From a virus: a DNA stretch of 64,000 nt. Positions within the stretch are counted from its first letter, which is position 1; the number at the start of each line of letters is the position of its first letter. This document shows positions 3,855 to 63,813 of this stretch, piece by piece. Below the pieces are notes generated by a model, which was not told the origin of the DNA, did no database searches, and worked only from the letters and a program-made list of their open reading frames with translations. The stretch lies in the IMG/VR virus record IMGVR_UViG_3300009149_000011, positions 1 to 64,000 of that record; one strand, given 5' to 3'. The translations under genes and the position numbers were made by a program.

Positions 3855-4280
3855 CTATTCCGTTTTATAAATCTTAATGGTATACTTATCGCCTTCTTTA
3901 ATCTGAAATTCACTATCTATATCCGTCCAAATCTTAACTCCCCCATGCTCTATTGTCATTAATCCTGGACATTCTTCCCAAAACTCTTCACCTTCACCTT
4001 CAAACTCATAACAAATTTTAGAATCATTTAAAGATAGCTTTTTCTTCATTAACTCCATAGCCCATACAGCTCCTCCAATGAAAGTTGCTTTAGTATCTTC
4101 AAAATCTCTTTTGTTATTGCAATTTGCAAAAGATACGGCTTCATCAAAAATTTCCTGTTTACTTATAGTTTCTGGTTCTATTTCAGATTTACACACAATC
4201 CTTCCGCATTCTTTGCAGAAAGGGATTATGTTTTTTTCAAAAGAAACATTAGGCTTAATACATTTACAAGGTATCGTCAT
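3855..4280 (-). CDS. hypothetical protein with amino-terminal zinc-ribbon-like cysteines, 141 aa
   Basis: Residues 5-30 contain CKC and later CKECGRIVC, a spacing compatible with a small zinc ribbon. The remainder is acidic with a (GEGEEFWEECPG) stretch and a beta-rich end. No family assigned. Heads a two-gene unit with the 43-aa protein downstream. Confidence 0.55.
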   Translation of the reverse strand: MTIPCKCIKPNVSFEKNIIPFCKECGRIVCKSEIEPETISKQEIFDEAVSFANCNNKRDFEDTKATFIGGAVWAMELMKKKLSLNDSKICYEFEGEGEEFWEECPGLMTIEHGGVKIWTDIDSEFQIKEGDKYTIKIYKTE

Positions 4281-4319
4281 GTTATTTCATGTATGTGTAA
4301 ACTTTTTCTAAATCGATTA

Positions 4320-4523
4320 TCATTTGTTCAAACCTAAATCTTTAGTAGATTCAGCTTTCTTCAACTTTTCATATTCCATGATAGCAGACTTAAGTATAGT
4401 TCTACAAGTTAAATCTCCAAAAACAGTGTTTCCGTCTTTATGTTTCAATTCAATTGGATCATCACCAACAACGGTCCACCCAATTGACTGTAAAGCCTTT
4501 TTATCTTCTTTTAACAATTTCAT
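4320..4523 (-). CDS. hypothetical protein, 67 aa, paralogous to 7931-8287
   Basis: LLKEDKKALQSIGWTVVGDD then PIELKHKDGN parallels LLKDLGWEIECESPLEIRHEDG at the start of the 7931-8287 protein, so the two share a small domain (helix, GW strand, P.E.(K/R)H.DG hairpin). Function unknown. Confidence 0.55.
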   Translation of the reverse strand: MKLLKEDKKALQSIGWTVVGDDPIELKHKDGNTVFGDLTCRTILKSAIMEYEKLKKAESTKDLGLNK

Positions 4524-4529
4524 AGTTTA

Positions 4530-4799
4530 TTAATAACAACGATTATAATTTAACCAATTATACCAATAGTGATACCCGCTTCTCCAGACATAAACCCATC
4601 TGTTACCATTCCATACATAAACATAGTGACCACCGTATTCAGAGTGCCAATAGGCTCTCTGACAAAAGCATCCATTACACCTATCTGAAATACTATATTG
4701 TTGACTGTAATAACTGCCTGATGAGAATCCGCTCTGAGCTTTAGTTTCGATGCTCATAATTCCTATGAGCAACAAACAAGTTAATATAAATTTTTTCAC
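4530..4799 (-). CDS. secreted Tyr/Trp-rich protein, 89 aa
   Basis: Sec signal peptide MKKFILTCLLLIGIMSIETKA with likely cleavage after TKA. The mature part of about 67 residues is packed with Tyr, Trp, His and Gly (YVWNGNRWVYVWRSGYHYW) and carries paired cysteines (CNGCFC). Small exported aromatic-rich proteins may bind the envelope or glycans; no family is recognised. It is 6 nt upstream of the 4320-4523 gene. Confidence 0.6.
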   Translation of the reverse strand: MKKFILTCLLLIGIMSIETKAQSGFSSGSYYSQQYSISDRCNGCFCQRAYWHSEYGGHYVYVWNGNRWVYVWRSGYHYWYNWLNYNRCY

Positions 4800-12657: not shown

Positions 12658-13455
12658 ATGAAAAATAAAGATACATCAAAAAGTTTAATATACCAATTCT
12701 TAGATCATAATAATGAACCATTTTATGTAGGTAAAACAAACAATCTACATAGACGTAAACAAGAACATAAAAAAGATTTAAAAAAGAAAGCTAACCTATA
12801 TGTATATAGAAAGATAACCAAACTCATCAGGGATCATAATTACAAACTGAAAATAGATATTGTATCCGAAGGCTTGTCTGAATCAGAAGCAAATGCTATG
12901 GAAATAACGCTTATTAAAAAGTATAGAGATAAAGGATATAAATTATCCAATCTCACAGATGGTGGAGACGGTACTCTGGGTCATGTTCCAGTTTTTACAG
13001 ATGAGTGGAGAAAAAATTTAAGTGAAGCAGCCAAAAAAAGAGTTGCTAGAGATGGAGTTCCATTTAAAGGGAAAAAGCACTCTGATGAAACAAAGAAGAA
13101 ATTAAGCCAGGTGAGAAAAGGGAAAATGCAAGGCAAGGATAATCCTTTTTATGGAAAACATCACACCGAAGAATTGAAAAAAGCTAATGCAGAAAGAGCT
13201 AGAAAACTTTTTTCTGGAAAAAAACAAAATAAAGAACATAAAGAAAAAAGAAGGCAAGCTATGATTAAAAAATTTATTAAAGCTACCCCTCCAAATAAAA
13301 AAACATTTATATGGAAAGATAGCTCTTCTACTCTTTCAGATTTCCTACTTAAAGAATATGGATATAAAGTAGCTAGGGGAACAATAAGCACATACACAAA
13401 AAGTGAAAAAACACTTAAAAGCGGATGGAAATTTAAATATATAGAAAGATTCTAG
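12658..13455 (+). CDS. GIY-YIG homing endonuclease with NUMOD3 repeats, 265 aa
   Basis: GIY-YIG domain at residues 10-95: LIYQFLDHNNEPFYVGKTNN (Y...YVGK), then RRKQEHK with catalytic Arg and a Glu in ESEANAMEITLI. NUMOD3 DNA-binding repeats follow (FKGKKHSDETKKKLS, NPFYGKHHTEELKKA), then an HTH-like tail (AVARGTIS). Free-standing homing endonuclease like the T4 Seg enzymes, which cut a cognate site and spread by repair. One of only two plus-strand genes; its stop overlaps the PARP stop head-to-head (CTAG), the mark of an inserted mobile gene. Confidence 0.9.
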   Translation: MKNKDTSKSLIYQFLDHNNEPFYVGKTNNLHRRKQEHKKDLKKKANLYVYRKITKLIRDHNYKLKIDIVSEGLSESEANAMEITLIKKYRDKGYKLSNLTDGGDGTLGHVPVFTDEWRKNLSEAAKKRVARDGVPFKGKKHSDETKKKLSQVRKGKMQGKDNPFYGKHHTEELKKANAERARKLFSGKKQNKEHKEKRRQAMIKKFIKATPPNKKTFIWKDSSSTLSDFLLKEYGYKVARGTISTYTKSEKTLKSGWKFKYIERF

Positions 13456-14756
13456 CTTACTTCCACCAAATATTCTATAGTAGTTTGATTCTCATTGTAA
13501 ACCATATACTCATTATTTCTCAAATCAGCACCACCATGAGCAAACACTGAATCATAATCCCCTAGCCTTTTAAGACGCTCTTCTGTTAATTGAGAATGAG
13601 AGTGCTCCCATTTCTTAATGTGATACTGATTACCAACGTGAACACTATACAAAGCTAAGAACGCTTTGTCACTACTTCCATTTGCCCAGTACGACCCTCT
13701 AAGAGAGGTGTAACCTAAAGATTTCTTAAACTTATCTGAAAAATACGTCGATTGACCAAACATTTTTCCCGTTATTACAGCATTTGAGGGTCTTAACACT
13801 AATCCACCTTCCATGATAGACAACCAGTTCTCATTCCTAGATCCATGCCAGTACAATTCTACCGTTTTGTTATCGGCGCTGTTTCTATATTTATCGAATT
13901 TATTAAATGTCTTTTCATTCTTAACTCTAAAAGCGGACTTGAACATGTTAGATTCAGGGCCCATTTTCTTTTTAATCATGTCAATAGTAGCTTTATCAGT
14001 TACAGCTTCCATTTTTAGCCCCATAAGGTCCACAATAGTACCTGAAGGCTTATCGTCTCCGTCTTCCTCTTCCTCCTCATCTTGAGCCGCATTCATTTTT
14101 ACCTGGCCACGCATTACATCAAGAGTATCTTGCTCACTACCCAATAAGTCTTGAGCCACACTAATAGTATCTTTGTTAATGTTTTCCTCTAAAAGGTAAT
14201 CTCCAACGTGAGCCATTTTTCTTGGAATTACTTTATAAAGAGATAAAAGCTTTTCGTTTACAGCATCCTTATCCGTGCCTACTTTAATCAATCCTACAAT
14301 TTCATCGATAATCTCCTGAGCTCTATCAACCATCTTTACAGTTACGCTTTCAGAAGAAATTTCATAGTTCTCTTTTACCGACTTGTTAGAGTACGAGCTC
14401 AAAAGCTTCATAATTCTCTTAATCTCCGAATCGGCAATGTTAAAAATATCTTTTTCAACCTTTGGCTTCGATGGGTCTTTACTCTCCACATGAAACAGCT
14501 CGGTCATATCTTCATAACCTTTCTTCACCTTAGATCTAAGCGTGGAATCCCATTTAGACATTGGATAAACGGTTATTTTTAGATAAGTCTCTTCTAAAGT
14601 GTCTTGCTTGGTGGGATCAGCCCTACCCCAATGGGCTTCAAATTGACCATCACCTCTTTCGTACATATTGTACACTTTGTTGTTGTTTTTGCCATCACGA
14701 CCCTCAACAAAAACAAGTTTTTTAGCTCCAAGAATTACTTTAGTATCTGTACTCAT
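13452..14756 (-). CDS. poly(ADP-ribose) polymerase with WGR, regulatory and catalytic domains, 434 aa
   Basis: WGR domain at about residues 10-85 (YEAHWGRADPT-like core, FEAHWGRA seen). A helical regulatory domain follows, then a Glu/Asp-rich linker, then the ADP-ribosyltransferase domain. The H-Y-E triad is present: YWHGSR (His), GKMFGQSTYFSD (Tyr) and NEYMVYN (Glu), matching the HGS, GIYFAD and NEYIVYD motifs of PARP1. It should use NAD+ to build ADP-ribose chains, probably stimulated by DNA ends through WGR. Phage PARPs are known but rare; a role in host takeover or DNA-break response is inference. Confidence 0.9.
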   Translation of the reverse strand: MSTDTKVILGAKKLVFVEGRDGKNNNKVYNMYERGDGQFEAHWGRADPTKQDTLEETYLKITVYPMSKWDSTLRSKVKKGYEDMTELFHVESKDPSKPKVEKDIFNIADSEIKRIMKLLSSYSNKSVKENYEISSESVTVKMVDRAQEIIDEIVGLIKVGTDKDAVNEKLLSLYKVIPRKMAHVGDYLLEENINKDTISVAQDLLGSEQDTLDVMRGQVKMNAAQDEEEEEDGDDKPSGTIVDLMGLKMEAVTDKATIDMIKKKMGPESNMFKSAFRVKNEKTFNKFDKYRNSADNKTVELYWHGSRNENWLSIMEGGLVLRPSNAVITGKMFGQSTYFSDKFKKSLGYTSLRGSYWANGSSDKAFLALYSVHVGNQYHIKKWEHSHSQLTEERLKRLGDYDSVFAHGGADLRNNEYMVYNENQTTIEYLVEVS

Positions 14757-15980: not shown

Positions 15981-16016
15981 AAAAAGGCTCTAAAATAAAC
16001 ATTTAGAGCCTTTTTT
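15981..16016 (-). terminator. intrinsic terminator after the release-factor gene
   Basis: On the minus strand AAGGCTCTAAA and TTTAGAGCCTT form an 11-bp stem followed by a run of T. It begins right after the TAA of the release factor at 16017. Confidence 0.8.
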
Positions 16017-16701
16017 TTACTTATGTAGTGATGAAATTTTACCTCTCAATACATCTTTATATTTAGCTGATTTACCAGTAACATGGTCATTAACCACGCC
16101 TTCTTTAACTCGATAGGTTCTACGTTTATCACCTCTATTCCCTGACCCAATCTGACCTTGTCTAATATTCTTTTCTTTTAGGGAATTTTCCTTATCGTTA
16201 ATCTTCTGCAGCTTTTCTTTTAATCTAATCCAGGCTTCTACCTCATTCTTTTGTCTATGCCTGGTTCCTTCTGATCTAATCATTATACCTGTTGGCAAAT
16301 GTTTGAGGATGACACAAGTTTCAACCTTGTTTACATTCTGACCTCCACTGCCTCTACTTCTAGTATAAGAACGCTCAACTTCACTTTTATCTATTTCTAT
16401 TTGAGAATGATATGAATCTTCCATCACAGCAACTGTTACTATGCTTGTATGGACTCTTCCTCGTTTTTCTGTTGGTGGTATTCGGTGCCAGCGGTGACCG
16501 CCAGACTCATTCTTAAAGAATTTCTTTGCACCTTTGCCAGTTATGCTAAAGGCATACTAAGCCGTCTCTGTTGATCTCGGATGAGATAGAGAATGAATTG
16601 TTTTGACATGCTTTCTTGTAGATATTAGCCATATCTTCGACTAATAACTTGGAATCAGTTCCGCCCTCGGCAGCCTTGATTTCTAGGGTAATCTTTTCCA
16701 T
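16017..16701 (-). CDS. RF1-type peptide chain release factor, expressed by +1 frameshift at an amber codon
   Basis: Two frames make one 227-aa protein. The first starts at ATG 16701 (MEKITLEIKAAEGGTDSKLL) and meets UAG (16548-16546) after a CUU codon, 51 codons in. A +1 slip at CUU-UAG-C continues as SITGKGAKKFF, IPPTEKRGRVHTS, then the GGQ catalytic loop RGSGGQNVNK (peptidyl-tRNA hydrolysis). PxT (PPT) in place of SPF indicates RF1 specificity (UAA/UAG). Domain 1 of cellular RF1 is absent. The CUU-stop-C layout copies the prfB frameshift, but with UAG. A simple frameshift mutation is the alternative. Confidence 0.75.
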
Positions 16702-63649: not shown

Positions 63650-63655
63650 AACTTG

Positions 63656-63733
63656 AGCTCCTGGAAGGGATCGAACCTCCGAACTTTCTAAACCTTGCGG
63701 GGTTTAGCGCTTATACCAACCAGCCACAGGAGC
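63656..63733 (-). tRNA. tRNA-like gene, anticodon arm with CCGCAA loop
   Basis: Acceptor GCTCCTG/CAGGAGC, T arm GGAGG-TTCGATC-CCTTC. Anticodon arm 20 nt: CTAAACC/GGTTTAG (7 bp) closing CCGCAA. Same hexaloop as its neighbours. Confidence 0.55.
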
Positions 63734-63738
63734 ATTTT

Positions 63739-63813
63739 GAGCGAAGGGGTAGAATCGAACTACCGTACTATAGGTTTGCGGACCTATCGCCTAACCACTC
63801 GGCAACCTTCGCT
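63739..63813 (-). tRNA. tRNA-Cys-like gene, anticodon arm with CCGCAA loop
   Basis: Acceptor AGCGAAG/CTTCGCT, D region GCCGAGTGGTTAGGC as in tRNA-Cys, T arm GGTAG-TTCGATT-CTACC. Anticodon arm ATAGGT/ACCTAT closes CCGCAA: like the Cys loop CTGCAAA but with C33 and one A fewer. Confidence 0.6.

Follow-up and report, generated by a model that had tools for sequence, protein, structure and literature searches.

In bacterial prfB, the gene for release factor 2 (RF2), slow termination at an internal stop codon allows peptidyl-tRNA-Leu to slip from CUU to UUU, and the +1 frameshift is autoregulatory. RF1 reads UAG and is not expected to read UGA. In a survey of more than 12,000 bacterial genomes, programmed frameshifting among release-factor genes was found for RF2 only, the internal stop being UGA or, rarely, UAA; UAG occurred in none of 8,164 prfB motifs, and prfA, the gene for RF1, showed no such frameshift (PMC12421855). 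Release factors 1 and 2 are recorded in huge phages in the huge-phage paper, and no mention of interrupted frames was found in the passages of its main text on release factors and stop codons (PMC7162821). No report of interrupted phage release-factor genes was found in the papers searched, which did not include the principal study of stop-codon recoding in phages, and the novelty of the present case is accordingly provisional.

The window analyzed here is a stretch of 64,000 nucleotides (positions 1 to 64,000) from a phage contig of 149,006 bases, IMG/VR record IMGVR_UViG_3300009149_000011 (G000), in which one RF-1 domain gene is present. This gene is split between two reading frames (Table 1). 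The zero-frame part matches Pfam PCRF by itself, and when the two frames are joined at CUU by a +1 step they encode a single continuous release factor of 227 residues (PCRF, E 1.3e-19; RF-1, E 2.1e-25), with PPT at residues 75-77 and GGQ at residues 119-121. A continuous release-factor domain with these two motifs had been proposed in the original prediction made from this DNA by eye. The amber stop that it placed within a slippery site retaining CUU and the trailing C was likewise found. The heptamer CTTTAGC is present in 17 copies in the window vs 10.4 expected, a count that is uninformative; what exceeds chance is its position exactly at the frame break. The stop codon of a small upstream ORF lies one base before the release-factor ATG, and translational coupling between the two is possible. 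Elsewhere in the neighborhood, a gene at 13452-14756 (-) encodes a poly(ADP-ribose) polymerase catalytic domain (Pfam PARP, E 4.5e-23), which is unusual in a phage, and a GIY-YIG/NUMOD3 homing-endonuclease-like gene at 12658-13455 (+) lies on the strand opposite to its neighbors.

Table 1. Features of the split release-factor gene, amber tRNAs of the same phage, and interrupted plasmid homologs. Positions are those of the window unless a record or locus is named.
Feature	Position	Strand	Remarks
Recoded gene, short RF1-type release factor	16017..16701	-	227 aa joined
Zero-frame segment, 51 codons	16546..16701	-	ATG at 16701 to UAG at 16548-16546; PCRF match, E 2.4e-5
Plus-one-frame segment	16017..16547	-	AGC (Ser52) to TAA at 16019-16017; open throughout
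Slippery site CUU_UAG_C	16545..16551	-	CUU 16551-16549, UAG 16548-16546, C 16545
Extended motif UAUGCCUUUAGC	16545..16556	-	Common to +1 relatives lacking a Shine-Dalgarno-like element
PPT codon-recognition motif	16470..16478	-	RF1 PxT position
GGQ peptide-release motif	16338..16346	-	Invariant in alignments
Small upstream ORF, 66 aa	16703..16903	-	No family match
Terminator-like hairpin and T run	15981..16010	-	Directly 3' of the gene; read by eye from sequence
tRNA, CUA (amber) anticodon	62265..62338	-
Second tRNA, CUA (amber) anticodon	G000:64291-64364	-
Plasmid gene with in-frame UGA, L259	3974-4678
Plasmid gene with in-frame UGA, L260	about 4000-4690
Plasmid gene with in-frame UGA, L261	4001-4687

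Like prfB, the window gene has CUU before the stop and C after it, an early break, and a continuation in the +1 frame; the Shine-Dalgarno (SD)-like element of prfB is shared by early +1 relatives. The window gene differs from prfB in carrying an RF1-type PPT and not SPF, in the use of UAG and not UGA (rarely UAA), in being a phage gene, in the placement of its site at codon 51 within domain 2, and in the absence of the SD-like element.

Assignment of the protein to the RF1 type, first made from its PxT motif, was upheld: PPT occupies the PxT position, and RF1 profiles were top-scoring, above those of RF2. Scores against the RF1 family fell far under the cut-offs (179 bits, cut-off 400) because domain 1 is absent, and the alignment begins past that domain. 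AlphaFold modeling of the stitched protein with 27 relatives gave a mean pLDDT of 90.8, with about 95 at the frame junction, which falls in a domain 2 strand of the model, and the top PDB matches in Foldseek were ribosome-bound RF1 (TM 0.88). The product is predicted with high confidence to consist of RF1 domains 2-4, with domain 1 missing. Bacterial RF1 (prfA) is closest in sequence and in fold over these domains and shares the PxT and GGQ motifs, whereas the window factor has no domain 1, bears an HRWQRxPPT signature, is encoded in an interrupted frame and scores below the RF1 cut-offs. Domain 1 is likewise missing from PrfH (release factor H), but the window protein reaches only 58.8 bits against the PrfH cut-off of 166.65, matches its fold more poorly and has an RF1-type PPT loop. 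Most members of the phage family described below are RF1-like at the decoding residues, with Gln before RxPPT and a conserved Thr at the loop end, and no systematic difference in these residues was found in the alignment between UGA- and UAG-interrupted members. Where RF1 has a Gln that acts close to the third base of the stop codon, the window protein has His, and its codon specificity is therefore uncertain; from PPT alone, release at UAA and UAG is predicted.

Homologs were sought in viral contigs, phage records, plasmids and bacterial genomes. The relatives recovered are short RF1-like genes on phage contigs, which reach 735 kb in length, and on a few bacterial plasmids or contigs. A frame-aware scan covered 80 loci, from which the uninterrupted and more distant L014 and L046 were dropped from the tree, leaving 78 phage-type members. 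An early frame interruption in domain 2 was present in 75 of these 78 (the exceptions being L093, L098 and L106), against none of 35 cellular RF1 genes from the same search. Among the 80 loci, with L099 tallied by its first stop, the +1 class comprised 25 with UGA, 13 with UAG and two with UAA, and the in-frame class 16 with UGA, 15 with UGA twice, two with UAG and two with UGA plus UAG; five had no interruption. About three quarters of the interrupted members use only UGA. Release-factor genes of this kind with an in-frame UGA are also present on large plasmids of Variovorax, Bosea and Rhizobium; the UGA of the Bosea gene (L260) was identified by inspection, beyond the 80-locus scan, and the annotation of the Variovorax plasmid divides its gene into two. 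One phage record (G013) has a second, partial C-terminal copy, L398, near the main gene (contig positions 49863-54183).

Three modes of interruption were distinguished. In the early +1 mode, CUU followed by UGA, UAG or UAA lies about 31 codons into a conserved motif, and an SD-like element (GGAGG) is present in 31/34 early +1 relatives. The late +1 mode lacks the SD element and has the form UAUGYCUU_UAG_C; it comprises the window gene and L091, L096, L099, L105, L110, L390 and L392, with UAG as the stop in all eight, and TATGYCTTTAGC is found at the frame break in the seven other, distinct relatives. L099 has an additional in-frame UGA upstream. Among the eight late-type sequences, 11 of the 15 motif columns are invariant vs 6 of 75 outside the motif; the longest invariant run has a permutation p of 0.0002, which is indicative only, the sequences being related. 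In the in-frame mode, one or two UGA codons, sometimes UAG, occupy a few recurrent positions. Comparison with homologs, which the original prediction had put forward as a check, thus bears it out in part: the break is conserved and UAUGYCUU_UAG_C recurs in eight genes, but site, mode and all three stops vary. The picture of a simple prfB with sensor and stop codon swapped gives way to a separate phage family in which sites, modes and stops shift.

In a tree of 83 factors, built by a quick method, the split between the phage family and cellular RF1 has full support. The window factor falls in a supported group of 15 (97*), the other 14 members of which all have in-frame stops, and its nearest sequence, L002, is 58% identical, so that base-level reading of the window site rests on one record, a point counted against the explanation favored below. 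The late +1 type requires five changes on the tree, four of them forced by starred branches. L105, a +1 gene with UAG as its stop, shares about 80% identity with L081 and L082, each with two in-frame UGA codons; mode and stop therefore turn over while the interruption is retained. In the relative pairs for which it could be computed, which do not include the window gene, dN/dS was 0.03-0.25 on both sides of the break, which points to purifying selection on both parts in these relatives. We have high confidence that the interruption of this gene family is real and selected.

The original prediction also reported that no strong SD-like stimulator lies upstream, and saw its case weakened by this. 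The element is indeed absent upstream of the window CTT, before which stands GGCTTAGTATGC, and the downstream RNA of the window folds no better than shuffled sequences (z -0.22); with neither an SD-like nor a structural stimulator, frameshift efficiency may therefore be low. The damage to the case is less than feared, as all eight members of the subtype are SD-less and the genes of the clade show no SD enrichment. In the window phage, SD sequences were present upstream of 8/148 genes vs 15/148 in the control, so that the lack of an SD at the frameshift site fits the phage as a whole. The frequency was 0.10 vs 0.09 (control) in phages with in-frame genes, and 0.34 vs 0.17 in phages with early +1 genes, where one whole contig gave 0.45 vs 0.10; the in-frame and late +1 types are found in phages without SD use, and the early +1 type in phages that use SD sequences. 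A host blind to SD sequences would account for the SD-less site, an idea that is only suggestive because the contrasts are not phylogenetically independent and cellular Bacteroidota prfB retains its GGAGG motif. The SD-like motif of prfB is widely kept in Bacteroidia (PMC8710568), and Flavobacterium johnsoniae is reported as a poor frameshifter at the prfB site (PMC12421855).

The explanation that we favor, and hold to be probable, is that of a phage RF1-class factor (domains 2, 3 and 4) whose synthesis is gated by translation termination, with feedback likely in the window. Ribosomes would read 51 codons and then reach UAG. Fast termination there would release a 51-residue peptide, and slow termination would allow peptidyl-tRNA-Leu to slip from CUU to UUU, bringing AGC into the A site and yielding the full-length factor. 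If the factor itself can read UAG, the capacity to terminate at UAG, to which host RF1 and the phage factor would both contribute, would come under negative feedback. The amber tRNAs of the window phage would compete at this codon, which counts against this explanation. The slippage, its dependence on termination rate, the codon specificity of the factor and the feedback are each inferred. Since the sensed UAG agrees with the predicted RF1 specificity, negative feedback is plausible in the window, and we place moderate confidence in the window gene forming such a loop. In relatives the same gating may operate from other stops and from readthrough. Most of them have UGA, which an RF1 is not expected to read, and RF1 autoregulation is therefore not the general rule. 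This UGA majority speaks for gating by termination efficiency as the property common to the family, feedback being direct only in members whose stop matches the specificity of the factor; in UGA members the loop could conceivably be indirect, a factor that reads UAA freeing RF2 for UGA.

A rather unlikely reading, and the one that survives best beside this, is that the interruption acts in open loop, as a limiter or as a sensor of termination in the host, and not through feedback by the product; expression would rise in an infection that leaves host RF1 or RF2 depleted or busy, irrespective of the stop. It is in accord with the prevalence of UGA despite RF1-like decoding residues. UGA followed by A or C is a leaky context, and the next base is A or C at 48 of 48 in-frame UGA codons, as an open-loop sensor would also have it. 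The window gene and its seven subtype relatives speak for termination-gated synthesis with feedback instead, in that all eight have UAG as the stop, in agreement with the predicted specificity, and members with UGA could still have the indirect feedback through UAA.

The window UAG occupies the same alignment column as an in-frame stop in 25 relatives, the window factor nests among in-frame members in the tree, L057, L061 and L069 carry an in-frame UAG at this column, and the window phage has CUA tRNAs. These observations would suit a gene of the in-frame amber type (like L061) that is decoded by readthrough, with a one-base indel immediately 3' of UAG, either an error of the sequence or a true change in the phage, mimicking a +1 site. 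We consider this improbable given the bases preceding the stop: CTT is immediately 5' of the stop in 40/40 relatives needing +1, as against CUU in 0/52 for in-frame members, and the 12-base TATGCCTTTAGC is identical in L099, which needs +1. A sequencing accident is thus unlikely as the source of the window frame break, and our confidence is good that the interruption in the window gene is decoded by a +1 slip.

A reassigned genetic code was considered and rejected. Coding density in the window phage was 0.902 under the standard code, 0.894 with UAG as sense and 0.916 with UGA as sense, and reassignment brought no gain in gene content or coding density. All three stops terminate genes in the window phage and the family phages (contig G006 having no UGA ends), Trp is UGG in 56/56 Trp codons of in-frame-interrupted genes, and Trp is absent from the main interrupted column in all relatives aligned. 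The window phage and its relatives use the standard code. In this they differ from stop-codon-recoded (code 4 or 15) phages, with which they have in common an own release factor, amber tRNAs in some, and in-frame stops in a phage gene. A candidate in-frame-UAG gene elsewhere in the genome, the clearest found, spans two unrelated domains and is therefore probably two genes; it was set aside.

A scan of seven genomes or contigs turned up no UCA suppressor tRNA that would serve UGA members. At L071, L075, L080-L082 and L105, CUA-type tRNAs are located no more than about 3 kb from the release-factor gene. In the window phage a link between its CUA tRNAs and the amber site is possible but unproven. 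Two adjoining tRNA-like genes in the window (63655-63733 and 63739-63812, both -) have unusual 8-base anticodon loops, called CGCA, and possibly read four bases. With these two and the two CUA tRNAs at hand, expression might depend on phage tRNAs and not on slippage, if UAGC were decoded as four bases or if a phage suppressor tRNA read UAG. Such decoding is very improbable: the CUA tRNA, as read from its sequence, has an ordinary 7-base loop and would therefore leave the frame unchanged, the CGCA of the 8-base loops does not match UAGC, CUU is present in every +1 member, and CUA tRNAs do not track the interrupting stop, being missing in G010, G015 and G006 and found in G022, which has a UGA site. 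A decaying pseudogene or sequencing artefact, to which an interrupted frame (the usual sign of decay) and a phage known from one record might point, has a negligible chance of being correct and is already contradicted by sites and contexts conserved across dozens of genomes, by dN/dS values that in relatives are low before and after the break, and by intact PPT and GGQ in a high-confidence fold.

For the family as a whole, we put at about even the chance that an early stop is almost universal and actively maintained in a large-phage RF1-type family, with turnover among three modes, and that the UAG sensor of the amber branch closes the loop. If true, an RF1-class factor with a UAG sensor would form a feedback loop known in bacteria for RF2 only. 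RF1-type genes would then carry programmed frameshifting, UAG included, in a viral family that swaps mode and stop and keeps the interruption. The interruption would also explain why automatic annotation splits or misses such genes. The family would offer natural experiments on what is sensed, on +1 slippage without Shine-Dalgarno pairing, and on the management of termination by large phages.
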